Shown: positions 1 to 11,352 of the stretch, piece after piece
How positions within the stretch are numbered: the first letter of the stretch is position 1
How the letters are laid out: the number at the start of each line of letters is the position of its first letter
NCBI GenBank assembly: GCA_002372735.1
Contig: DFIE01000178.1
Span: 4,934-16,291 of the forward strand
Direction of reading: 5' to 3'
Length of the DNA: 11,358 bases
Source: Clostridiales bacterium UBA3705
GTDB lineage: Bacteria; Bacillota_A; Clostridia; Oscillospirales; Oscillospiraceae
Position numbers and translations under genes: made by a program
The notes under the pieces: generated by a model
The model's input: the letters and a program-made list of their open reading frames with translations, nothing else
Told to the model about the DNA's origin: nothing
Database searches by the model: none

Positions 1-1045
1 GGCAGCCGCCGAAGAAGGCGCCCATCATGGAGCCCACGCCGTCGCCCAGCAGGGTGCGGTGCAGGCCGGGATCCTTCAGCAGGTCCTGCTCCACAATGGA
101 GGACAGGTTCTCATGGTCGGCAATGTGCTCGGCGAAGACCACGAAGGCCACGGGCACATAGGCGGAGATCAGGGTGACAAAGTAGCCCAGGCTCAGCTCA
201 CCGAAGGCGCCGGTGCCCTGCAGAATGGTGAACCGGGGCACGGAGACCAGGGACTTCAGGCTGAAGGTGGCAAAGCAGTCCACAAAGGGCTGGAAGTTGA
301 TGACCTTGAGCATGTCGTTGCCGGTGGCGTTGCCCACCAGATAGAACACGCAGGCGCAGGCGTAGCCCGCCAGGATGCCCAGGATGAAGGGGATCAGCCG
401 GGCCATCTTCTTGCCGAAGGTGGACACCAGCACCGTGGTGAACAGGGTGACCAGGCCGCAGACCAGGCACACGTAGACAGAACCCGTGGGGGCGTCCACT
501 ATGCTCTCCACAATGGCGGGGATGCCGTTGCGCATCTCAATGGTGTACTCCATCACCTGCTCGGTGACGCTGCTCTTGAGCAGGTCAGACACCGCGTTGG
601 GGGCCAGAGACAGGCCGATGATGGCCACCGTGGGCCCGATGACCACCGGGGGCATCAGCTTGCCCAGCCAGTCGGTGCCCAGGGTCTTGGCGAACACTGC
701 CAGGATCACATAAACCAAGCCCGCCAATGCCGCGCCGAGAATCAGACCCAGATACCCGAGACCGACACTTGCGGCGCCTGCAAAGGCGGAGCACATTGAA
801 CCGATGAAAGCAAAGGAGGAGCCAAGAAACACGGGGCTCTTGGAGCGGGTGAAAAGCAGATACACAATGGTGCCGATGCCTGCGCCGAACAGGGCGGCTG
901 CGGGGTCCATGTCCACGCCCATGGCACCGTTGATAATGGCGGGCACGGCCAGGGTGGCGGCCATAATGGCCAGCAGCTGCTGGAACGCGAACACGATCCG
1001 CTGGGAGAATTTGGGCTTGTCCTTGATGCCGTAAATCAGTTTCAT
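1..1045 (-). CDS. uraA: Uracil permease, UraA/PyrP type (3' end off window)
   Basis: Membrane transporter of the nucleobase-ascorbate/uracil-xanthine permease family, expected to import uracil with protons for salvage. The 348 visible residues begin MKLIYGIKDKP and are rich in membrane segments. Family marks are the SPVFLGSSFAFI stretch of the third segment, a 'MPPVVIGPTVAIIGLSLA' segment, and the acidic substrate-binding segment FAEHIADHE (Glu306, equivalent to the essential Glu in E. coli UraA). The frame runs off the edge at AFFGGC, where the family continues into its Pro-Asn-Thr-Thr-Tyr motif. A loop of about 60 residues around 'MEYTIEMRNGIPAIVESIV' appears longer than in E. coli UraA. 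The start is set by GAGAGG at 1053-1058, 7 nt before ATG. It has its own promoter and attenuator-like leader. Family assignment is firm; uracil rather than xanthine as substrate follows from the closer motif match and is less certain. Confidence 0.93.
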   Translation of the reverse strand, partial: MKLIYGIKDKPKFSQRIVFAFQQLLAIMAATLAVPAIINGAMGVDMDPAAALFGAGIGTIVYLLFTRSKSPVFLGSSFAFIGSMCSAFAGAASVGLGYLGLILGAALAGLVYVILAVFAKTLGTDWLGKLMPPVVIGPTVAIIGLSLAPNAVSDLLKSSVTEQVMEYTIEMRNGIPAIVESIVDAPTGSVYVCLVCGLVTLFTTVLVSTFGKKMARLIPFILGILAGYACACVFYLVGNATGNDMLKVINFQPFVDCFATFSLKSLVSVPRFTILQGTGAFGELSLGYFVTLISAYVPVAFVVFAEHIADHENLSSIVEQDLLKDPGLHRTLLGDGVGSMMGAFFGGC

Positions 1046-1204
1046 TGGGATACCTCTCATTTCTAGAAAATTGCCGAAAGAAAAAACGCACCCTATCCGG
1101 CGGATGGGTGCGGCTCAGCTGGTGTCAGGGGTCCTTTCCGGCTGCATGACTCCGCCTGAAAGACTCATGCGGGTGCCGCCCATTGGGCGGGCCCGATTTG
1201 TTCT
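1046..1204 (-). promoter_or_regulatory. Structured leader of the uracil permease gene
   Basis: This is the predicted 5' untranslated RNA of the permease gene, from a start near 1204. In transcript order it contains a CCGCCC/GGGCGG hairpin (1190-1176); a longer hairpin at 1164-1131 (GUC, UUUC and GGC pairing with GCC, GAAA and GAC around an 11-nt loop); and the terminator at 1112-1087. The 3' arm of the first hairpin, AUGGGCGGC, could instead pair with GCCG-CA-CCCAU at the base of the terminator (9 pairs, 2-nt bulge), so an antiterminator is possible. Pyrimidine control is inferred from the gene. I do not see the PyrR-binding loop consensus (UCCNGNGAGG), so the effector is unknown. Confidence 0.55.
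1081..1112 (-). terminator. Attenuator terminator before uracil permease
   Basis: On the minus strand CGCACCC plus ATCC pairs with GGAT plus GGGTGCG (11 pairs, one bulged base, GCC loop), directly followed by six U. It lies upstream of the ribosome site of the permease gene, so it must be read through for expression. That is the layout of transcription attenuation. On the plus strand no T run follows, so it is not a plus-strand terminator. Confidence 0.8.
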
Positions 1205-1409: not shown

Positions 1410-3044
1410 ATGGACAGGCAAAACAGACCGGTTCTGATTTATGTGGCGCTGCTGCTGGTCGCGGGGGTCCTGTATCTGTGCACCACGCCTACCGAGGGAT
1501 ATCTGAACACTCTGTGCTTCACGCTGAACTTCCTGATTTATGTTTGTCTGCTGGTATCCTGGATGTACTCCCTGCGGCAGCGGCTGCTGCCCTCCCGCAG
1601 CCGGAGCTATCTGCTCACCGCGGCCTGGCTGATGCTGCTGTTTTTGCTGACGCGGACCTTCAAATACCGGATACATGAGGAATATTTGTTTCTTGTCCGC
1701 ACTGTCACCGAGCTGTATTACGTCCCTCAGCTGCTGATCCCCACTCTGTTTTTCATGACCTGTCTGCGCCTGGCACGGGGCGAGACCCAGGAGGGCTACG
1801 GCCCGGAGCTGTGGCTGCTGGTGCCTGGCGTGGGGCTGGCGCTGCTGGTGCTGACCAATGACCTGCATCATTTGTTCTACCTTCCCACGGTCCCTCTGGA
1901 GAAGTTCAGCCTACACAGTGGCACCTATGCCTACGGCCCGGTGTTCTGGCTGGCTATGGGCTGGATTGTGCTGAGCCTGACCCTGGGCTGCCTGCTGCTG
2001 TTTTGGCTCACAGGCCGGCGCTCTGCCCGGCATCTGCTCTGGCCTGGGGCAGTGGGCGCGGGCTGGGTTGGCATGACCCTCATAAACCTGCTGGTGATGG
2101 AGCCTTTGAAGCTTGCGCAGCTCTACCACCTGCCGGAGCTCCATATTTTCGGGATGCTGGGCATTTTTGAATCCTGCATTCGGGCCCGGCTGATCCCAAG
2201 CAACGAGAACCACACCGGCTTTTTTGCCCGGCTGGAGCTGCCCGCCCTGGTCACCGACCGGAGCCTGCAGCCGGTGTGGACCACTGCCGTGCCCGTGCCG
2301 GCGGACCGGGATCTGCTAAAAGCTGCCCTGGAAGGGCCTGTGGAGCTGCCCGCCGACACCCGGCTCTTTGGCATGGAGCTGCCTGCGGGCCTGGCCTTCT
2401 GGACCGTGGACGAGAGCGGCCTGCGCCGGGCGGACCGGGCCCTGCAGGAGGCCAACGGGCTGCTCGGCATGGAAAACGAGATCATCCGCCGCCAGCGGGA
2501 GCTGGCCGAGGAGCGGGCGGGCATTGACAGCCGCCGCCTGCTCTTTGACCGGACGGCCCGGGCGGTGTACCCCGCCCAAAAGCGGATCTCCGACCTGCTG
2601 GAACAGGCCCGGCCGGATACCCCCTCCTTCCGCCGGGACATGGCCCGCATCCTGGTGCTGACGGCCTACGTCAAGCGCAAGGCGAATTTTGTCATGCTGG
2701 GGGCGGAGCGGGACACCGTCACCGCCGGGGAGCTCTGCGCCGCCCTGCAGGAGAGCGCCCACTATCTGAGCTATTGCGGTCTGCACACCACCATCAGCCT
2801 GGCCCGGGAGGAGAACCTGCCCCGGGCGGCGGCCATGGCGGCCTATGACAGCTTTGCCCTGGCCACAGAGACCCTGCTGGACCTGACCGGGGAGCTCTGG
2901 GTCCGGCTGTCCGGCCGCACCCTGCTGCTTCTGGCGGATTTGGACCGGGTGCCCCCGCTGCCGGCGCTGCCCCTGCCCTGCACCGCCGCCTGCGAGGACG
3001 GGCAGCTCCGCCTGCAGATCGACCTGGGAGGTGACGGCGTATGA
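1410..3044 (+). CDS. 7TM sensor-kinase-like protein, probably pseudokinase
   Basis: Membrane protein of 544 residues with seven hydrophobic segments (about 7-25, 36-53, 67-83, 103-121, 133-150, 177-200, 209-229). The motif TNDLHH at 149-154 is typical of the 7TM sensor region found at the N-terminus of some histidine kinases. A weak PAS-like stretch follows (about 275-335), then a charged helical linker (340-375) and a helix resembling the dimerisation/phosphotransfer region. Where kinases have a His followed by Asp or Glu, this protein reads RAVYPAQKRISD (384-395), so the phosphoacceptor seems lost. The C-terminal part (435-540) is shaped like an ATPase domain, but the N box, nucleotide-binding Asp and glycine motifs are not recognisable. 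It is translationally coupled (ATGA overlap) to the apparently active kinase downstream, so I infer a sensing or allosteric partner. The start is supported by AAGGGGGG 7 nt upstream. Known ligand: none. Confidence 0.75.
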   Translation: MDRQNRPVLIYVALLLVAGVLYLCTTPTEGYLNTLCFTLNFLIYVCLLVSWMYSLRQRLLPSRSRSYLLTAAWLMLLFLLTRTFKYRIHEEYLFLVRTVTELYYVPQLLIPTLFFMTCLRLARGETQEGYGPELWLLVPGVGLALLVLTNDLHHLFYLPTVPLEKFSLHSGTYAYGPVFWLAMGWIVLSLTLGCLLLFWLTGRRSARHLLWPGAVGAGWVGMTLINLLVMEPLKLAQLYHLPELHIFGMLGIFESCIRARLIPSNENHTGFFARLELPALVTDRSLQPVWTTAVPVPADRDLLKAALEGPVELPADTRLFGMELPAGLAFWTVDESGLRRADRALQEANGLLGMENEIIRRQRELAEERAGIDSRRLLFDRTARAVYPAQKRISDLLEQARPDTPSFRRDMARILVLTAYVKRKANFVMLGAERDTVTAGELCAALQESAHYLSYCGLHTTISLAREENLPRAAAMAAYDSFALATETLLDLTGELWVRLSGRTLLLLADLDRVPPLPALPLPCTAACEDGQLRLQIDLGGDGV

Positions 3045-4291
3045 TTCCACTGTCCCAAGCGGCGGGAACTCTGCCTGGGTATCTCCTCCTCCTGCTGATC
3101 CTGGTGCTGGTGGTGGGGCAGGCGGCAGTGCTGGTGCTGACGGTGCGGGACCGCCGGGGCCGGGGCTGGACCCTGGCTGCCTGCGCGCTGCTGCTGGCCG
3201 GCCTGGTGCTGGCGGTGGCGGTGGTGGATTTGGCTTGGCCCGGGCGGCAGTGGTACGCCTGGGATGGCTTTGTCCGGAACCTGCCCTGGCTGTGGTATGC
3301 CCTGCTGGAGCTGGTGCTGGGGGTGCTGACTGCCCTGGCGATGGCCAATGCCCTGGTCTATCGCCGCCGGAATCTGACCCCCGACGCCATCCGCCGGGTG
3401 CTGAATCTGCTGCCCGCGGGGGTGTGCGTCAGCCGGCCGGACGGCACCGTACTGCTCACAAATTTAAATATGGTCCGCCTGTGCCGGGCCCTCACCGGCA
3501 GCCCCCTGACCGACGCCAACCGGTTTTGGGCCCGGGTCCGGGCCCTGGGGGAGGACCGGGACGGCCAGCTGCTGGTCCATCTGCCCAATGACGAGGCCTG
3601 GCTGTTCTCCTGCAGCCCCCTGCAGGGCGGGCCGGAGCAGCAGATCCTGGCCGCCGACGTCACCGACCGGGACCGGATCACCCGGGAGCTGGCCGCCAAG
3701 AACCGGCAGCTGAAGCAGGTGCAGCAGCGGCTGAAGGCGGTGGCCGCCGACGAGCGGGGCCTGGTGGCGGCCCGGGAGCTGGTAAACGCCCGCACCACGG
3801 TGCACAACCAGCTGGGCAACGTGCTGCTCATCGGCAAGTATTACATGGACCACCCCGAGCGCATGGACGAGACCGAGCTGCTGCACCTTTTGGAGTATCA
3901 AAACTATTTCCTCCTGGGGGAGGCAGAGCAGACCCCGGCGCCCCCGGACGACCTGGACCGTGCCCTGGACAATGCCCGGCGCATCGGCCTGGAGGTGGAG
4001 ACCCTGGGCCCGGTGCCCACGGCCCAGCCTGCCCTGGGCCTGCTGGCCCAGGCGGTGGCGCAGTGCGGGGCCAACGCCGTGCGCCATGCCGGCGCCGACC
4101 GGCTGACGGTGACCCTCCGCACCGGCCCGGAGGGCTGGAGGTTGGAGCTGACCAACAACGGCACGCCCCCCGCGGGCCCCGTGGCGGAGACCGGGGGCCT
4201 GGCGGCCCTGCGCCGGGCGGTGGAGTCCGCCGGCGGGGTCATGACCATCCAAAGTGCGCCGGTCTTTGCCCTGCGCATCACCCTGCCCTGA
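3041..4291 (+). CDS. Membrane histidine kinase with PAS-like domain
   Basis: Sensor kinase of 416 residues. Three membrane segments lie near 13-34, 43-63 and 82-104, followed by a PAS-like domain (about 118-208, beginning LLPAGVCVSRPDG) and a coiled coil (209-235). The phosphotransfer helix reads ARTTVHNQLGN with candidate phosphoacceptor His255, giving HNQLG where related kinases have H-D/E-x-L-G. The ATPase domain shows an N-box-like ANAVRHAGA (Asn345), a G1-like TNNG (371-374) and a G2-like GGLAALRRAVESAGG (385-399). The usual N-box Glu is Gln341, and the G1 Asp is Asn, so catalysis may be altered. It resembles the kinases that pair with NarL-type regulators. GGGAGGTG lies 7 nt before the ATG, which overlaps the stop of the preceding gene. 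The likely partner is the regulator at 4453-5118, although a terminator separates them. Confidence 0.82.
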   Translation: MIPLSQAAGTLPGYLLLLLILVLVVGQAAVLVLTVRDRRGRGWTLAACALLLAGLVLAVAVVDLAWPGRQWYAWDGFVRNLPWLWYALLELVLGVLTALAMANALVYRRRNLTPDAIRRVLNLLPAGVCVSRPDGTVLLTNLNMVRLCRALTGSPLTDANRFWARVRALGEDRDGQLLVHLPNDEAWLFSCSPLQGGPEQQILAADVTDRDRITRELAAKNRQLKQVQQRLKAVAADERGLVAARELVNARTTVHNQLGNVLLIGKYYMDHPERMDETELLHLLEYQNYFLLGEAEQTPAPPDDLDRALDNARRIGLEVETLGPVPTAQPALGLLAQAVAQCGANAVRHAGADRLTVTLRTGPEGWRLELTNNGTPPAGPVAETGGLAALRRAVESAGGVMTIQSAPVFALRITLP

Positions 4292-4296
4292 CCCAT

Positions 4297-4328
4297 GCCC
4301 GGCCGCCTCATGACGGCCGGGCTTTTTT
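4297..4328 (+). terminator. Terminator after histidine kinase
   Basis: GCCCGGCCG (4297-4305) pairs perfectly with CGGCCGGGC (4314-4322) around an 8-nt loop and is followed by six T. It begins 6 nt past the kinase stop codon, so the sensor unit ends here and the response regulator is transcribed separately, apart from possible read-through. Confidence 0.93.
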
Positions 4329-4348
4329 GCAGGCAGCCCCGGGTGAAA

Positions 4349-4368
4349 AACCCCCCGTTTGGGGGGAT
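4349..4368 (+). promoter_or_regulatory. C-run/G-run palindrome at regulator promoter
   Basis: Six C (4351-4356), GTTT, and six G (4361-4366), with flanking AA and AT, form an inverted repeat. Read on the minus strand it is ATCCCCCC, AAAC, GGGGGGTT, matching the palindrome at 1328-1350 base for base outside the 4-bp spacer and one extra G. Its centre is 31.5 bp upstream of the -10 box, essentially the same spacing as in the sensor promoter. A shared operator is inferred; the response regulator is one candidate binder. Confidence 0.5.
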
Positions 4369-4389
4369 GAAGGGAAGGAATTCGTCGTG

Positions 4390-4395
4390 TATAAT
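4390..4395 (+). promoter_or_regulatory. -10 box of regulator/surface-protein unit
   Basis: A perfect TATAAT lies in a short AT-rich patch. At the expected distance upstream (4367-4372, ATGAAG) there is no good -35 box, which is what one expects of an activator-dependent promoter. The palindrome at 4349-4368 touches that missing -35 position. The predicted start is near 4402, giving a leader of about 50 nt. Confidence 0.6.
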
Positions 4396-4452
4396 GTAAA
4401 TGCTTATACGGGGGAGTATCCCGATCCGCTCCCGACAAAGGCAGGTGATACA

Positions 4453-5118
4453 ATGGAAGAAGCACCCGCAACCGTGGTGATTGTGGACGACGACCTGGTC
4501 TCCCGGGGGTATATGGAGCTGTTCATCAAGCCCTCCAAAAGCTACCGGGTGGCGGCGGCCCTGCCCTTTGCTGCCGACGTGCTGACCTGGTGCCGTGAAA
4601 ACGGCCCGCCGGATCTGGTGCTGATGGACGTGATGATGGCCGACGGGGTGGACGGGCTCACTGCTGCCGCCGGGCTCAAGCAGCGCTATCCCCGCACCCG
4701 GATCATCATTGCCACCTCCATGGCCGATGCCGACTGGCTGGACAAGGCCCGGGCCGCGGGGATTGAGAGCTTCTGGTTTAAAACCTACCCGGAGCTGCCC
4801 CTGCTGGAGATTATGGACCGCACCATGGCCGGCGAGCACGTCTATCCCGCCTCGGCCCCCGGGGTCAGCCTGGGGCAGCTGCCGGCCAGCCGACTCACCA
4901 AGCGCCAGCGCCAGCTGCTGCGCTGCCTGGTAGAGGGCATGACCAACCGGGAGATCGGCGAGCGAATGTATCTGAGTCCCAACACCGTCAAGGAGTATCT
5001 GGACGACCTGATGGAAAAGTCCGGGCTCCACACCCGTACCGCTTTGGTGGCCCAGGCGGCGCGTCTTGGCATAGTGGTCAGCGAGTCTGACCGGCTTGCC
5101 GGCGCCGGCGACCGCTGA
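4453..5118 (+). CDS. NarL/LuxR-family response regulator
   Basis: Cytoplasmic two-component regulator of 221 residues. The receiver domain (about 6-125) has the acidic pair in VIVDDD (Asp12, Asp13), phosphoacceptor Asp59 in LVLMDV, the switch Thr88 and the conserved Lys110 (FWFK). The C-terminal LuxR-type helix-turn-helix (about 147-207) begins LTKRQRQLLRCLVEGMTNRE and contains the recognition-helix motif SPNTVKEYL. The open frame extends upstream, but the ATG at 4453 is chosen because the receiver fold begins right after it, AGGTG lies 5 nt before it, and it follows the predicted promoter. It probably takes phosphate from the kinase at 3041-4291. The surface-protein gene follows after 65 nt with no terminator or clear promoter between, so co-transcription is likely. 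Confidence 0.9.
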   Translation: MEEAPATVVIVDDDLVSRGYMELFIKPSKSYRVAAALPFAADVLTWCRENGPPDLVLMDVMMADGVDGLTAAAGLKQRYPRTRIIIATSMADADWLDKARAAGIESFWFKTYPELPLLEIMDRTMAGEHVYPASAPGVSLGQLPASRLTKRQRQLLRCLVEGMTNREIGERMYLSPNTVKEYLDDLMEKSGLHTRTALVAQAARLGIVVSESDRLAGAGDR

Positions 5119-5132
5119 GACACCCACCCGCC

Positions 5133-5155
5133 CGGCAGGGGGCATCCCGCTGCCG
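5133..5155 (+). other. Intercistronic hairpin between regulator and surface gene
   Basis: CGGCAG (5133-5138) pairs with CTGCCG (5150-5155), with further GGG/CCC pairing possible inside the 11-nt loop. No T run follows, so it is not a terminator. It could act in RNA processing or stability to give the two genes different expression, but chance is possible in GC-rich spacer DNA. Confidence 0.35.
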
Positions 5156-5183
5156 CCCATTCCAACACGAAGGAGGAGAATTC

Positions 5184-8100
5184 ATGAAAACACGCACTCG
5201 CATTTTCTCTGCCCTGCTGGCGCTGCTGCTGGTGGCGTCGCTGCTGCCGGTGCAGGAGCTGCACCTGGTTCTGCCGGCCAGCGCAGAGGAAGACTACACC
5301 GACCTGACCATCGACCTGAAGCATGAGGACGAGTACACCGGCATGACCCCCGCCCAGATTCTCACGGATATGGGCAAAAAGGACGCCGGCTCCTACACCG
5401 GTCCCGGCGTGGCCAACGAGCAGGTCTACAAGGACGCCGCCAACAATCCCGATCTGTGGCGGCATGCCTGGAAGTGGACCGTCAACGAAGACAAAGAGGG
5501 CAGCATCCGCAAGTATCTCACCTCCACCGACCCCAAGGACACCTACATCTGTCTCACCGGCGACGACACGAGCGAGTACCATACCAAGGCCGAGGCCTGG
5601 GAGACCATGGTCATCACCACCGACAAGGTGCTGGACCTGAACGGCCATGTGATGAAAATCCAGTTGAACAACAACCGGAACAACGCCAAATATGACCGCT
5701 ACCAGAACAAATCCGCCTATACGCACAACAATATCGCCTTTGAGATCACCAACGGCGCCACCCTGACCATCATCGACTCCTCCGCCTGGCGGGGGGAGAA
5801 CTACGGCAAGGGCAAAGGTGAAATTTCCTTCACCGGCTACATGGTCAGCCCCTTCCACTACGACATCGACTGGTACACCACCCGTGACCTGTTCAAGGTC
5901 ACCAACGGCAACCTGGTCATCTACGGCGGCACCTTCCAGGCCGGCCGCAAGAAGTACCAGTCCAAGGACGTCAGCATTGACGACTTTGAGACCATTGTGG
6001 GCCAGGCGGTGAGCCTGGGCGTGGCCATTGCCGAGTACGCCACCGGCTGCAACACCGAGGTGGCCAAGTACCAGGACATCCTTGAGGCGGCCAAGGACGC
6101 CGCCGGCACCGTCAGCGGGCCCAAGGAGACCCCGAAAAACGAATCCGACTCCGACCAGGCGTCCGGCCCCAACACCGTAAAGGAGAAGGACGGCTCCGGC
6201 GCCCCCAAGGAGAAGAAAGAGGACACCGCCAAGGAGGCCGGCCAGGACGGCACCAGCGCGGGCCGGAACCAGACCGTCCAGGAAAAGAAGGACGACAAGA
6301 ACAAGGCCATTGCCGAGGGCACAAAGAACGCCACCCCCGAGGGCAGCAGCACCGGCAACAACGGCCAGGCGTCCACGGCCAAGAACGACAAGAACGCAAA
6401 GCTGGCCGAGGCCGAGAACAACGTGGTCAAGGCCTTTCTCGACGAGAACAAGCTCAAGACCATGGTAAAGGACGCCTTCGGCCTGGCCAAGGGCATCAAG
6501 GGCCTGTTTACCAACGACGGCAGCGCCCGGGTCTGCCAGTCCATCAAGGGCACTGTGGTCACCATCGGCAACGACGGCACCTTTGTCTGCTACGGCGGCA
6601 CCTTCAACGGCTACGGCTCCACCCCGGATACCCGCAACGCCGTCATTGAGTGCACCCGCCTTTCCACCGTCAATGTGAACGACAAGACCAAGTACCAGGG
6701 CGGCCTGGCCTACATCTACGGCGGCACCTTTAACGCCTACAACGGCGCCAACGTGTTCAACATGGTCAAGGCCAACAACGGCAAGCAGATCGTCTACCGG
6801 GTCACCGAGGATGAGAAAGGCAACCAGACGGTCACGCAGAAGACCCTCACCGACCAGGAGACCGGCAAGCTGGAGATCCTCTACTACGAGAACCAGGAGA
6901 ACATCCTCAAGCCCGGCTTTGCCTTCACCCCCATCAACACCTCCAACGTCCAGGTCCGCGGCGGCACCTTCCGCTGCTACTATGACCTGTGGAACGTGGC
7001 CACCAAGGACGGCAGCGACGAGCACTTCACCAAGTTCCCCGGCACCTCGGGCTCTGTGAACCTGGGGCCGGAGTCCTTCGGCAACGACCTGATCCAGGAC
7101 GGCCGCATCCAGCTCATCGACACCTACGGCGACGGCGCCCTGGTGCTGCTGGACGAGCGGACCGAAGAGGCGGCCGCGGTGCAGAACGCGGGGCTGTATC
7201 ACTACCGGCTGTTCTGCTCCAGCACGGAGCTCCGTGCCAAGAACTACCTGCAGGTCATGCCCAACGAGGCCGTGACCAACGCCTCCGCCTCCATGCAGCT
7301 GGCCACCTATCAGGACAACGAGAAGGCCGCCAACAAGCTCTGGCTGAATGATGAGAAGAAGGAAAACATCCGCACCCCCATGACCCAGACCGAGCGGTAC
7401 TTTGAGTTTATGTATAACGACTCAGACGCCGCCAACTACGCGGTCATGCCCAACTTCCACGACACCCAGTCCGGCAAGTACGACGTCTACGGCAAGCACC
7501 TGGACGACTCCGAAATCTGGTACTATCCCACCCCCAAGGACGCCAAAAACAATCCCATCGAGGACGTGTCCCTCACCGATCTGAGACTGCAGGCGGTGAG
7601 CAAGAAGGGGTCCAGCATCTATCTGTCCCAGCGCTTCAACGACGAAAACACCTGGAACACCAATCTCAAGAACGTAGATCCCAACAGCATCCAGCTCTAC
7701 AGTCTGAACGTGCAGAGCGCCGTCCGGGAGAATATGCGCCACTTCACCTATAAGATGTACCGCGTAGACCCCCTGACCCGGGAAAATCTCAGCGAATCCA
7801 ACGTCTACGGCGTGGACGAGCCCCTCTTTGAGGTCACCTACGGCACCTCCCCGGGCTCCCTCAAGTGCAAGTTCCCCCTGCTGGAGGTCCAGGAGCAGCT
7901 CAAGCAGCTGCGGCCCGACTGGCCGGGCTACCAGTCCGGCGAGTACTACCGCATCGTGCTGGACATTGAAGAGCACATGGGCATCGGCTTTAACGGCAGC
8001 ACCTACGGCGCCAAGATGCCCGTGGCCCACACCACCTCCACCATCCTCTTCCGCTGCACCGACGTCAACGAGACCCAGGACAACGGCGGCGCGTACAAAG

Positions 8101-11100
8101 ATCACGACTTTACCGCCCTGCAGTGGGTGGACACCCCCAAGGCCGGCAGCACCGCCAGCGTGCAGATCGTCAACGGCAAGGCCGGCATGACCGACTACGC
8201 CGCCCTCAACAAGATCTTTGACGTCTACTACCAGTGGTGGGAGGTAGACGCCACCGGCGAGCCCGTCACCCTCCTGGCCGGCACCGACAACATCTACGAC
8301 CCAGCCAGCGGCGTAGATAAGTCTGACCACAAGCCCTCCATGTGGAACGTGGGCAAGGACGGCAAGCACTATTTCAACACCGTGGATCCCTCCGATCCCA
8401 AGGCCAGTACCTATGCCACCGGCACCTACGTCAATGGCCTGCCCGCCAACCCGCTGAGCTGGACCCCCGAGCAGCTGCATATGTACTCCGCCCAGGTGGT
8501 GGAACGGATGGACCTGACCAAGGACTCCTCCAAGACCCTGAGCCTGATGAACAACAACGTCTTCAAGACCAACACCGACTCCTGCTACATCCCCGAGGAG
8601 CTGGCGGGCAAGGACATCTGCGTCAAGGCGATTGTGATCAACTACACCCGCCCGGGCACCAACGTCTACGACAAGAAGCAGACCTTCACCTCCCACGCCT
8701 TCCGGGTTGCCGAAAAGGACAGCGGCGAGACCACCATGAACAAGATCGAGGCCGTCTATTCTGCAGGCAAGGAGTATGCCACGGCCACCGACCCGGTGAC
8801 CATCAAGTACAAGGACGACACCACGGTGCTCTACACCATCCTGGACAGCCTGAGCTTCAAGGCCACCTCCTGCGTCACCGGCGAGACCTACACCAAGAAG
8901 TTCTCCGACCTGCACTACACCAGCCGTGACCAGCTGCCCCAGCTGAAATTCCCCACCGACTTCAAGGACGTGCTGGATCCCAACGAGATCCCCACCGGCG
9001 AATACAAGCTGTACATCCGTTACGGCACCCGCTGGACGCTCTCCGGCAATACCTATGTGCTGTACAATAATACCAACACCGTGAGCTTTGACTACGAGGC
9101 GCCGGCCACCGGCATGCGCCTGACCCAGGGCTCGGTGGTGGAGTACTCCCTCACCGACGTGCAAAACGGCGTCTACGCTGCCGGCGAGCGGCTCATTGCC
9201 CCGGTGCCGGCCAATGCCTCCGCCGGCTTTGACTACAACAGCGCAACCACCACCAACTTCTCCGTGGCCTTTATGGGGGCCGACGGCCTGATCCGCTTCG
9301 GCGGCGCGGCCGGCACCACCACCATCGCCCTCCGCGGGCCGGACGGCAAGATTGTCTCCGTTACCGTCAAGGTCACCAAGGAGGCCGGCGACCAGTCCCC
9401 GGTGCAGAACACCAACCTGGGCGAGAACACCTTTGTGGACGTCCAGGAGACCGCATTTTACGGCGACCCGGTGCTCTGGGCAGTGGGCCACGACCCGCAG
9501 ATCACCAACGGCATGGATCCCACCCACTTTGCCCCCGGCGCCACCTGCACCCGCGGCCAGATCGTCACCTTCCTCTGGCGGGCCAAGGGCTGCCCCGAGC
9601 CGGAGACCACCGTCAGCCCCTTTGTAGACGTCACCGGGGGCTATTACTTCAAGCCCGTGCTCTGGGCGGTGGAGGCCGGCATCACCAACGGCATTGACGC
9701 CACCCACTTCGGCCCCAACAACGGCTGCACCCGCGGCCAGGTGGTCACCTTCATCTGGCGTGCCATGGATGAGCCCGCGCCCAAGTCCACAACCACAGCC
9801 TTTGTGGATCTGCTCCCCAGCGCCTACTATTACAACGCGGTGCTCTGGGCCGTGGAGAACGGCGTCACCAACGGCATCGACCCCACCCACTTTGCCCCCA
9901 ACAACGTCTGCCAGCGCGGCCAGATCGTCACCTTCCTCTTCCGGGCGGACACCGGCGGCAACCTCCTGCGCTTTACAGAGCAGCCCATCGGCGGCCTGAT
10001 CGACTCCGCCAACGGCACCACCTTCCCCCTGAGCGTCAAGGTCACCGGCGGCACGGCCCCCTATACCTACCAGTGGCACAGGGTCAGAACCACCTCCATC
10101 TCCCAGGCCGGCGGCGGCAAGCAGCGTTTCCAGAGCAGCGACGACCTGCGGGATACCAGCCTGGACAACATTGTCTTTGACTATGACGAGCCCATTGAGG
10201 ACGCCGTGATGCCCGACGTCACCGTCAGCCAGGAGGGCTGGTACGAGTGCGTGGTCAACGACGCCGCGGGCCGGTCCATCCGCTCGGTCCGTGTCCATGT
10301 GGCGGACAAGCTCTCCTTCTTCTACGAGTCGCCGGACGGCTACTGCAGCACTGAAATGCCCTGCTACCTCCGGGCGGACGTGGCCGGCGGCATGGAGCCG
10401 CTGAGCTGCCAGTGGTACAAGGACGGCCAGAGCTTTGGCGAGCCCAACAAGGTGGGCATCTATACCAACGAGGCCGGCAGCTACTTCTGCGAGGTCAAGG
10501 ACAGCTTCGGCCAGCGCGTCAGATCCCGCACCTTCAAGGTGGAGTCTGTGGGCGCCAGCGGCGTGAACGTGCTGGGCCAGGACGACTTCCTGTTCTATGC
10601 CGAGGATGTGGTTTACGTCACAGGCCGGGGCCTGGTGGTCAGCGGCCGGGTGGTCAACGGCAGGGTGGACACCGGCGATACCATCCGTCTGCTCTCCTAC
10701 GACCCCGACACCAAGCAGTCGGTGGTAAAGGAATTCACCGTTGACGGCATCGAGATGTTCCACAAGGTGATGGACTACGCCGAAAAGGGCGACAACGCGG
10801 GCCTGCTGCTTAAGGAAGCCGTACGCGGCGACGTGCAGACGGGCGACGCCCTGGTGGGCCAAAACACAGGGCTGAAGAATCTCACCCAAGGCGCAAGACT
10901 GGTGGGCAAGATCGAGCTCAACGACCTGCGCAACAACCCCTTCCAGGTGGGCGATACCGTCCAGCTGAAAGTGCCCCGGGGCACTGACGTCACAGGCCTG
11001 TTCCTGGATCTCAACGGCGACCCCATCGGCAAGAATACCACCCGTGACAACGTGGTCATGCGCCTGGCCAACAGCGCCCACCGGCCCATCTGCTTCTATC

Positions 11101-11177
11101 CGGGCCAGCAGCTCAACATCCAGGTGGGCGGCAGAATCTACGGCACCTTTACCATTGTGGATATCCGGGAGGGCTGA
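5184..11177 (+). CDS. Giant secreted SLH surface protein with EF-Tu-like tail
   Basis: Exported protein of 1997 residues. A signal peptide (1-34) has a basic start, an LLALLLVASLL core and a likely cut after ASA. Residues ~180-600 carry beta-helix-like rungs, with GGTF at 248-251, 471-474, 513-516 and 593-596. They are interrupted by a Lys/Asp/Asn/Gly-rich low-complexity stretch (312-406). Residues 600-1340 are unassigned, probably beta-rich modules such as the YYQWWEVD region near 1015. A Big-like domain (about 1345-1405) precedes three SLH repeats (1417-1469, 1480-1532, 1540-1589), two Ig-like domains (1596-1708, 1709-1790) and an EF-Tu domain II/III-like module (1800-1997). SLH repeats normally bind cell-wall polymers, so the protein should sit on the cell surface; its role is unknown, possibly adhesion or envelope structure. 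AGGAGG (5171-5176) lies 7 nt before the ATG. No catalytic motif was recognised. Confidence 0.92.
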   Translation: MKTRTRIFSALLALLLVASLLPVQELHLVLPASAEEDYTDLTIDLKHEDEYTGMTPAQILTDMGKKDAGSYTGPGVANEQVYKDAANNPDLWRHAWKWTVNEDKEGSIRKYLTSTDPKDTYICLTGDDTSEYHTKAEAWETMVITTDKVLDLNGHVMKIQLNNNRNNAKYDRYQNKSAYTHNNIAFEITNGATLTIIDSSAWRGENYGKGKGEISFTGYMVSPFHYDIDWYTTRDLFKVTNGNLVIYGGTFQAGRKKYQSKDVSIDDFETIVGQAVSLGVAIAEYATGCNTEVAKYQDILEAAKDAAGTVSGPKETPKNESDSDQASGPNTVKEKDGSGAPKEKKEDTAKEAGQDGTSAGRNQTVQEKKDDKNKAIAEGTKNATPEGSSTGNNGQASTAKNDKNAKLAEAENNVVKAFLDENKLKTMVKDAFGLAKGIKGLFTNDGSARVCQSIKGTVVTIGNDGTFVCYGGTFNGYGSTPDTRNAVIECTRLSTVNVNDKTKYQGGLAYIYGGTFNAYNGANVFNMVKANNGKQIVYRVTEDEKGNQTVTQKTLTDQETGKLEILYYENQENILKPGFAFTPINTSNVQVRGGTFRCYYDLWNVATKDGSDEHFTKFPGTSGSVNLGPESFGNDLIQDGRIQLIDTYGDGALVLLDERTEEAAAVQNAGLYHYRLFCSSTELRAKNYLQVMPNEAVTNASASMQLATYQDNEKAANKLWLNDEKKENIRTPMTQTERYFEFMYNDSDAANYAVMPNFHDTQSGKYDVYGKHLDDSEIWYYPTPKDAKNNPIEDVSLTDLRLQAVSKKGSSIYLSQRFNDENTWNTNLKNVDPNSIQLYSLNVQSAVRENMRHFTYKMYRVDPLTRENLSESNVYGVDEPLFEVTYGTSPGSLKCKFPLLEVQEQLKQLRPDWPGYQSGEYYRIVLDIEEHMGIGFNGSTYGAKMPVAHTTSTILFRCTDVNETQDNGGAYKDHDFTALQWVDTPKAGSTASVQIVNGKAGMTDYAALNKIFDVYYQWWEVDATGEPVTLLAGTDNIYDPASGVDKSDHKPSMWNVGKDGKHYFNTVDPSDPKASTYATGTYVNGLPANPLSWTPEQLHMYSAQVVERMDLTKDSSKTLSLMNNNVFKTNTDSCYIPEELAGKDICVKAIVINYTRPGTNVYDKKQTFTSHAFRVAEKDSGETTMNKIEAVYSAGKEYATATDPVTIKYKDDTTVLYTILDSLSFKATSCVTGETYTKKFSDLHYTSRDQLPQLKFPTDFKDVLDPNEIPTGEYKLYIRYGTRWTLSGNTYVLYNNTNTVSFDYEAPATGMRLTQGSVVEYSLTDVQNGVYAAGERLIAPVPANASAGFDYNSATTTNFSVAFMGADGLIRFGGAAGTTTIALRGPDGKIVSVTVKVTKEAGDQSPVQNTNLGENTFVDVQETAFYGDPVLWAVGHDPQITNGMDPTHFAPGATCTRGQIVTFLWRAKGCPEPETTVSPFVDVTGGYYFKPVLWAVEAGITNGIDATHFGPNNGCTRGQVVTFIWRAMDEPAPKSTTTAFVDLLPSAYYYNAVLWAVENGVTNGIDPTHFAPNNVCQRGQIVTFLFRADTGGNLLRFTEQPIGGLIDSANGTTFPLSVKVTGGTAPYTYQWHRVRTTSISQAGGGKQRFQSSDDLRDTSLDNIVFDYDEPIEDAVMPDVTVSQEGWYECVVNDAAGRSIRSVRVHVADKLSFFYESPDGYCSTEMPCYLRADVAGGMEPLSCQWYKDGQSFGEPNKVGIYTNEAGSYFCEVKDSFGQRVRSRTFKVESVGASGVNVLGQDDFLFYAEDVVYVTGRGLVVSGRVVNGRVDTGDTIRLLSYDPDTKQSVVKEFTVDGIEMFHKVMDYAEKGDNAGLLLKEAVRGDVQTGDALVGQNTGLKNLTQGARLVGKIELNDLRNNPFQVGDTVQLKVPRGTDVTGLFLDLNGDPIGKNTTRDNVVMRLANSAHRPICFYPGQQLNIQVGGRIYGTFTIVDIREG
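9432..9950 (+). repeat. Three tandem SLH repeats within the surface protein
   Basis: Each copy of about 50 residues begins FVD(V/L), has a VLWAV helix and a TNG-(M/I)-D-x-THF-x-P loop, and ends with RGQ-(I/V)-VTF-(L/I/F)-(W/F)-R-A. Copies 1 and 3 are also nearly identical in DNA around the TNG..DPTHFAP and GQIVTFL parts, suggesting duplication or homogenisation. The usual TRAE wall-binding motif is TRGQ in copies 1 and 2 and QRGQ in copy 3. Confidence 0.92.
10581..11174 (+). other. EF-Tu domain II + III-like module (no GTPase domain)
   Basis: Residues 1800-1891 follow EF-Tu domain II: EDVVYVTGRGLVVSGRVVNG matches the bacterial EDVF-I-GRGTVVTGRVERG signature, then VDGIEMFHKVMD, KGDNAGLLLK and the V-x-x-GD-x-LV end (EF-Tu: GVEMFRK, GENVGVLLRG, IERGQVLA). 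Residues 1904-1995 follow domain III: NPFQVGDTVQLKV, GTDVTGLF, a DNV-M-L strand, HRPICFYPGQQL and GGRIYGTFTIVDI (EF-Tu: TPF-GYRPQF, TTDVTGTI, DN-KM-V, HPIA, GLRF, GGRTVGAG). The G domain and its nucleotide motifs are absent. Because the protein has a signal peptide, this module should be extracellular. Homology is strong by motif order; function is unknown. Confidence 0.82.
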
Positions 11178-11197
11178 GCCCTCACAGCAACAACCCC

Positions 11198-11228
11198 AGG
11201 CAGGCCGGGCTTCCCGGCCTGCCTTTTT
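11198..11228 (+). terminator. Terminator after surface protein gene
   Basis: AGGCAGGCCGGG (11198-11209) pairs perfectly with CCCGGCCTGCCT (11213-11224) around a 3-nt loop, followed by a run of T to 11228. It ends the regulator/surface-protein unit about 20 nt after the stop codon. Confidence 0.93.
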
Positions 11229-11255
11229 GCCGCCCCGCTTTCTTCGGAAAAACAC

Positions 11256-11284
11256 TTGCAAACAGGGCGAAAAAATGGTAGAAT
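11256..11284 (+). promoter_or_regulatory. Promoter for a gene beyond the window
   Basis: TTGCAA (11256-11261), a 17-bp spacer and TAGAAT (11279-11284) make a good sigma-A-type promoter reading rightward, with a start near 11291. It sits just past the terminator at 11198-11228 in DNA that becomes AT-rich. The target gene is not in the window. Confidence 0.65.
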
Positions 11285-11325
11285 AACATGATAAATTGGG
11301 ATTGTATCCACTTATACTAGAATGC

Positions 11326-11352
11326 AATAAAATCATTTATAATGGTTTTATT
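11326..11352 (+). promoter_or_regulatory. AT-rich palindrome in the downstream leader
   Basis: AATAAAATCATT (11326-11337), a TAT centre and AATGGTTTTATT (11341-11352) form an inverted repeat with 11 of 12 pairs matched (12 if G-U is allowed). It lies 35 bp past the predicted start of the promoter at 11256-11284 and contains a TATAAT at 11338-11343 that lacks a good -35. It may be an operator or an RNA hairpin of the next gene. There is no T run of terminator type after a GC stem. Confidence 0.4.

Follow-up and report, generated by a model that had tools for sequence, protein, structure and literature searches.

An EF-Tu half without its GTPase domain in a family of SLH-bearing, apparently exported proteins

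Introduction

The occurrence of elongation factor Tu (EF-Tu) on the bacterial surface has long been debated, EF-Tu having no signal peptide. Here we analysed a stretch of 11,358 nucleotides from Clostridiales bacterium UBA3705 (contig DFIE01000178.1, positions 4,934 to 16,291; hereafter the window), in which one gene encodes a putatively secreted protein with S-layer homology (SLH) stretches and a C-terminal part (the tail) resembling EF-Tu. Like described SLH surface proteins, this protein and its relatives combine SLH stretches, a signal-peptide-like N-terminus and immunoglobulin (Ig)-like and beta-helix-like parts; unlike them, they bear an EF-Tu cassette on the C-terminal side of SLH. Surface-moonlighting EF-Tu, as presented in an excerpt of PMC5593925, also places EF-Tu domains on the cell surface; in that case the surface protein is the housekeeping factor, whereas the tail belongs to a separate, apparently wall-anchored gene product and a normal EF-Tu is kept (3 genomes out of 3 checked). 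Among the matches listed from the literature on surface or SLH-linked EF-Tu, no description of an SLH–EF-Tu fusion was found.

Results

EF-Tu domains II and III linked to SLH

The gene and its parts are the following:

5184..11177, + strand: SLH-bearing protein, putatively secreted, 1997 amino acids, with C-terminal EF-Tu domains II and III
5184..5288, + strand: signal peptide, about residues 1-35, by eye
5289..9410, + strand: large head forming the N-terminal part, residues ~36-1410; by eye it contains GGTF repeats of a beta-helix-like kind
9411..9950, + strand: SLH region of three stretches, residues ~1410-1590 (PF00395, E 5.5e-19)
9951..10566, + strand: two Ig-like domains, residues ~1590-1794, the second by eye
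10581..10874, + strand: EF-Tu domain II-like barrel, residues ~1800-1897 (profile and fold match)
10875..11174, + strand: EF-Tu domain III-like barrel, residues ~1898-1997 (profile and fold match)
11206..11230, + strand: terminator-like hairpin and T-run, 3' of the SLH gene (consensus match only)

A reading made from the sequence only had proposed that the tail follows EF-Tu domains II and III and that the GTPase domain is missing, and both statements hold. Domain II of the window protein is recognised by PF03144 with 45-50 bits (cut-off 30.3), and the NCBIfam EF-Tu models match the tail from position ~202-211 through 392-394. On five tail proteins these models reach 76-155 bits, compared with a cut-off of 522.4 for TIGR00485. 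Both barrels align with EF-Tu and their two-barrel arrangement is the same, while the Pfam domain III model gave no match on the window protein. An unrelated beta-barrel family is rejected by these fold matches. In BFVD, the 13 matches at E<=0.001 are all, by name, translation-GTPase-like proteins of giant viruses. A GTPase P-loop motif was found upstream of the tail in none of 25 tail proteins versus 75 of 83 EF-Tu rows; among the eight other rows, seven are open reading frames (ORFs) cut at the start of the locus and one has the P-loop if TGA is read as Trp. The tail of the window protein thus consists of EF-Tu domains II and III without the GTPase domain, linked to SLH.

The same reading had seen a dedicated extracellular protein. 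Its SLH region and its separate gene are confirmed; the N-terminus has the typical look of a signal peptide by eye, so that export is apparent only. No domain was recognised by Pfam at E<=1 in the head. In the Ig region, Pfam Ig_3, SprB and I-set matches are each under their own cut-off, and Ig_3 is above its cut-off at the corresponding place in some relatives.

A rare family on several heads

A search with the tail only, among proteins of similar length, returned P0002, P0003 and P0004 (68%, 35% and 34% identity, respectively). With the tail of P0003, the search words being drawn from the tail alone, 14 proteins were retrieved, all of them (14 out of 14) with SLH in a precomputed domain list. 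The family set, built from the protein searches and the tails in seven genomes, comprises 25 tail proteins, so that the search for further SLH proteins with this tail, which the earlier reading had called for, was fruitful. In Pfam scans, SLH and GTP_EFTU_D2 exceed their cut-offs in 25 out of 25, the best SLH stretch always preceding the tail; GTP_EFTU_D3 does so in 11. Many of these proteins show Ig_3 or SprB matches between SLH and tail, not all of them above cut-off; this interval is devoid of such matches at E<=0.01 in P0012, P0017-P0020, L094, L111 and L112. The heads vary: P0003, P0004 and P0012 carry a pectate-lyase-like adhesive domain, P0013-P0015 and the first gene of L087 carry zinc phospholipase C and PLAT, and in some proteins SLH is N-terminal (e.g. 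P0009-P0011, P0016, P0017 and L111). Ig-like matches also occur C-terminal to the tail in P0017 and L111. The sole named match, P0016 from a Ruminococcaceae metagenome-assembled genome, is annotated as a hypothetical protein.

We then counted tail-bearing genomes in taxonomic groups taken from G001 (genome of L051, Candidatus Evtepia), whose order and class we take to be Oscillospirales and Clostridia. The genome draws overlap and all counts are lower bounds. Under strict cut-offs, tail-bearing genomes numbered 1 of 394 in the order, 2 of 400 in the family, 4 of 391 in the class and 3 of 148 among relatives of G795; the phylum draw gave 0 of 299, an empty result that is uninformative alone. 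Searches within genera gave 1 of 23, 1 of 2 and 1 of 2 genomes, each time the starting genome only. As the cut-offs were placed above EF-Tu scores, diverged tails are missed: the second gene of L114, a real tail, has an A2 score of 161 bits, in the EF-Tu range, and was found only as a neighbour. In one genome search, two of the three matching genomes had EF-Tu-sized ORFs and were left uncounted. At least seven distinct genomes bear a tail, two of them (G020 and G777) with two tail genes side by side. In L087, adjacent EF-Tu-tailed genes lie at 9490-14487 and 14551-16563; in L114, tandem SLH-EF-Tu genes (5971-7725 and 7770-9497) adjoin a gene for an esterase/LamG-type protein. In a contig scan, the matches listed were mostly apparent housekeeping EF-Tus; it served as the EF-Tu reference and has no bearing on the distribution of tails. 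The reference rows are biased by the search pattern (IEMF..D, FL.Y.EDV), so that EF-Tu conservation is overstated in them.

A branch of its own

The comparison with housekeeping EF-Tu that had been suggested places the tails on their own branch. The tree was built from 49 rows of domains II and III over 190 columns (21 tails, 27 of the EF-Tu rows and P0007), with EF-Tu as its only translational GTPase and the root not inferred; P0004, P0015, P0020 and L112 (near copies) and P0005 and P0006 (fragments) were left out of the tree and of the residue counts. The branch splitting the 21 tails from the 27 EF-Tus has a support of 100/99 and is present in 100% of 200 bootstrap trees. These 27 EF-Tus include those of three tail-bearing genomes, and in each of the 3 tail genomes checked a single full EF-Tu exceeded the curated cut-off, at 692-712 bits. 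Recent derivation of the tail from the tuf gene of its own host is therefore not supported, the tails standing opposite all 27 EF-Tus across this branch. A phage or plasmid origin was also tried: by tblastn, 84 plasmid and 15 phage records matched, all at <60% identity only, the records listed (10 plasmid and all 15 phage) being mostly annotated EF-Tu or unannotated.

P0007 (248 amino acids) resembles the tails in having GTPase-free domains II and III, but has one transmembrane stretch instead of SLH, the domains lying outside the membrane by eye. It branches with a Mycoplasmataceae EF-Tu (99/90) and probably has a separate origin from the SLH tails, which would mean that a GTPase-free EF-Tu half has seemingly arisen at least twice.

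Selection and the domain II pocket

For the pair formed by the window gene and its relative in L093 (G529), the ratio of nonsynonymous to synonymous substitution rates (dN/dS) is 0.228 for domain II, the lowest among the six parts of the protein, 0.276 for the head, 0.362 for SLH, 0.403 for domain III, and 0.464 and 0.653 for the first and second Ig-like domains. These values show the signature of purifying selection on the tail. Recurrence in a family, a single well-supported branch and purifying selection together argue for a module, not an isolated oddity.

In the numbering of enterobacterial EF-Tu and over 21 tails, the pocket residues E215, E259 and G275 are kept in all 21, F261 in 20, and D216 and N273 in 19 each. 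By these residues and by the matching of both domains the tails resemble EF-Tu (TIGR00485). They differ from it by the lack of the GTPase domain, by apparent export with SLH and by the loss of R233, H319 and R333, each of which persists in a single tail of the 21, and of G386 (0 of 21); Y213 and F386 are instead found in 21 out of 21. Position 223 is R or K in all 21. With regard to binding of aminoacyl-tRNA, the tails largely keep the pocket residues and have lost H319. The mean net charge is -6.2 for the tails (range -23 to +1) versus -3.2 for 75 EF-Tus. The earlier suggestion of a mimic with RNA ligands looks less likely, because the tails are on average more acidic than EF-Tu, are apparently exported and have mostly lost H319 and R333.

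Excerpts of two studies describe a pocket for GE2270A in EF-Tu domain II, which a salt bridge between R223 and E259 locks (PMC8183687), and EF-Tu thiopeptides acting at the aminoacyl-tRNA site (PMC3917276). Among the 12 GE2270A contacts given in the former, 9 are identical in the window tail (hypergeometric P 0.0025, with the domain II identity to EF-Tu, 31/91, as background); T256, R262 and V274 are changed. Other contact lists gave P 0.0066 (wider), 0.067 and 0.082 (narrower) and 0.050 (T-stem) and were not relied on. A control with the pockets of other GTPases was uninformative, the domain II profile having matched one ORF only, weakly. Retention of the domain II pocket in the tails is thus suggestive, and the possibility of a peptide-like ligand or a bait stays alive with it, on borderline statistics.

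Gene neighbourhood

Upstream of the SLH gene, the window holds a trio of genes:

1410..3044, + strand: seven-transmembrane (7TM) sensor (HisKA_7TM, 44.5 bits), first of the trio
3041..4291, + strand: histidine-kinase-like protein (HATPase_c, 20.4 bits, cut-off of 26.4 not reached)
4453..5118, + strand: response regulator whose DNA-binding domain is of the LuxR type; the SLH gene follows after 65 bp

Relatives of the trio exist in L093 of G529 (45% identity for the regulator, 28% for the kinase and 29% for the 7TM sensor), where only the regulator is above its Pfam cut-off. This trio adjoins the tail gene, but in divergent orientation. Linkage kept despite rearrangement suggests that the trio regulates the surface protein; in the lineage of the window, the SLH-EF-Tu gene is probably controlled by the 7TM sensor, the kinase and the LuxR-type regulator. 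Near the sensor trio of L093, at 3977-5272 (- strand), lies, by eye, an ORF resembling an IS110-type transposase, a possible cause of the changed orientation.

Close to the tail gene, two other lineages (L111 and L087) have an SPFH Band_7_1 gene; in L111 the ORF matched is a cut one and its score just exceeds the cut-off. In L111 (1-9917), the SLH-EF-Tu gene stands in a run with TPM, zinc-ribbon-like, TMEM43, DUF4428, SPFH and leucine-rich repeat-SLH genes, and in L087 the SPFH gene and a DUF6935 gene lie upstream of the tail gene pair. According to an excerpt of PMC8581546, an SPFH protein of Bacillus subtilis is encoded in the pspA-ydjGHI operon, part of an envelope-stress response. A likeness of the L111 run to this operon is no more than a lead; no PspA was seen in this run.

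The window also contains a truncated ORF at 1-1060 (- strand), xanthine/uracil permease-like by eye. Opposite the SLH gene, very long antisense ORFs at 7422-11336 (- strand, 1304 amino acids) and 4842-7202 (- strand, 786 amino acids) are in all likelihood shadow ORFs, the sequence having 63% GC.

Discussion

We propose that a GTPase-free cassette of domains II and III would have split from an EF-Tu-type gene, been joined to an exported SLH wall anchor, directly or via Ig-like domains, and since then evolved into a separate family found on several distinct heads. The protein would be exported and held by SLH on a secondary wall polymer. Its EF-Tu barrels would thereby be located within the wall or at the cell surface and act as a module for binding or assembly, the ligand being peptide-like, a wall component or a partner protein. 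The ligand site would most likely be the conserved face of domain II, with a role outside translation. We consider this scenario, an exported SLH-anchored cassette forming its own family and serving as such a module on the wall, to be probable, and a wall-displayed module with a selected face on domain II to be the most economical reading. A translation role is unlikely, because the tail proteins lack the GTPase, are apparently exported and have lost residues of EF-Tu. Several observations weigh against our proposal. The dN/dS values come from one gene pair, in which domain III is less constrained than SLH. Compared with other positions near-invariant in EF-Tu, the published contacts show no significant excess of conservation over the 21 tails (P 0.095), and conservation of the pocket by entropy is borderline (P 0.053; 0.049 without glycines). 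The signal peptide was judged by eye only, the model of the SLH, Ig and tail parts has a mean confidence (pLDDT) of 61.6, too poor to give domain packing, and the tree program warns of long branches meeting. Moreover, the family is rare and patchy, which speaks against a core function.

The barrels might instead be structural only, a rigid spacer or a lattice or assembly element of an S-layer-like coat in which the conserved residues hold the fold and bind no ligand. The position of the tail C-terminal to SLH in all 25 proteins fits this idea, as do the non-significant pocket excess and several retained positions that are glycines or off the pocket list (K263, D266). Domain II is nevertheless the slowest-evolving part of the window protein, below SLH and Ig, and E215 and E259 are invariant in the tails, while some other charged residues of domain II that are near-invariant in EF-Tu (E243, R233 and R279) are lost; we hold a purely structural role to be rather unlikely, though worth serious attention. 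It is unlikely that the barrels form an adhesin for host mucus, matrix or glycosaminoglycan, i.e. a dedicated version of surface-moonlighting EF-Tu. An excerpt of PMC5593925 reports EF-Tu and surface fragments of mycoplasmas and Staphylococcus retained on heparin, fibronectin, actin and other columns, and pectate-lyase-like adhesive domains are present in three heads, but the same excerpt ties heparin binding to clustered basic residues whereas the tails are acidic on average, and a host-associated life of the carriers is only presumed.

A decoy function, the surface barrels catching EF-Tu-targeting agents (GE2270A-type thiopeptides or EF-Tu-docking toxins) before they reach the cytosol, would agree with the location of the GE2270A pocket in domain II (PMC8183687, in excerpt), the 9 identical contacts and the constancy of R/K223 and E259. 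The excess fades once EF-Tu's own conservation is the yardstick and three contacts are changed in the window; we hold a decoy to be very improbable. Distinctly doubtful is the broader possibility that the exported domain II keeps a working acceptor-end pocket, with which it would act outside the cell on aminoacyl- or thiopeptide-like compounds, or on toxins that dock on EF-Tu, either as a receptor or as a decoy; if true, a translation-factor pocket would have been turned into a surface sensor or shield. Finally, a chimeric assembly or a frameshift fusing an SLH gene to a tuf fragment at about 10560 was rejected and is scarcely credible: the same join recurs elsewhere, both at 68% identity on other contigs and in other genomes and in numerous diverged relatives, the frame is open, codon use is alike, and in the tree the tail is distant from the 27 housekeeping EF-Tus.

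The non-GTPase half of EF-Tu exists here as a dedicated, apparently exported domain under selection, the housekeeping copy being intact in the genomes checked. A surface role would thereby be separated from translation, and extracellular binding by EF-Tu domains II and III becomes directly testable on a small purified domain. Since the tails form a distinct family still under selection, part of the protein-synthesis machinery appears to have acquired a new extracellular role in some Clostridia.

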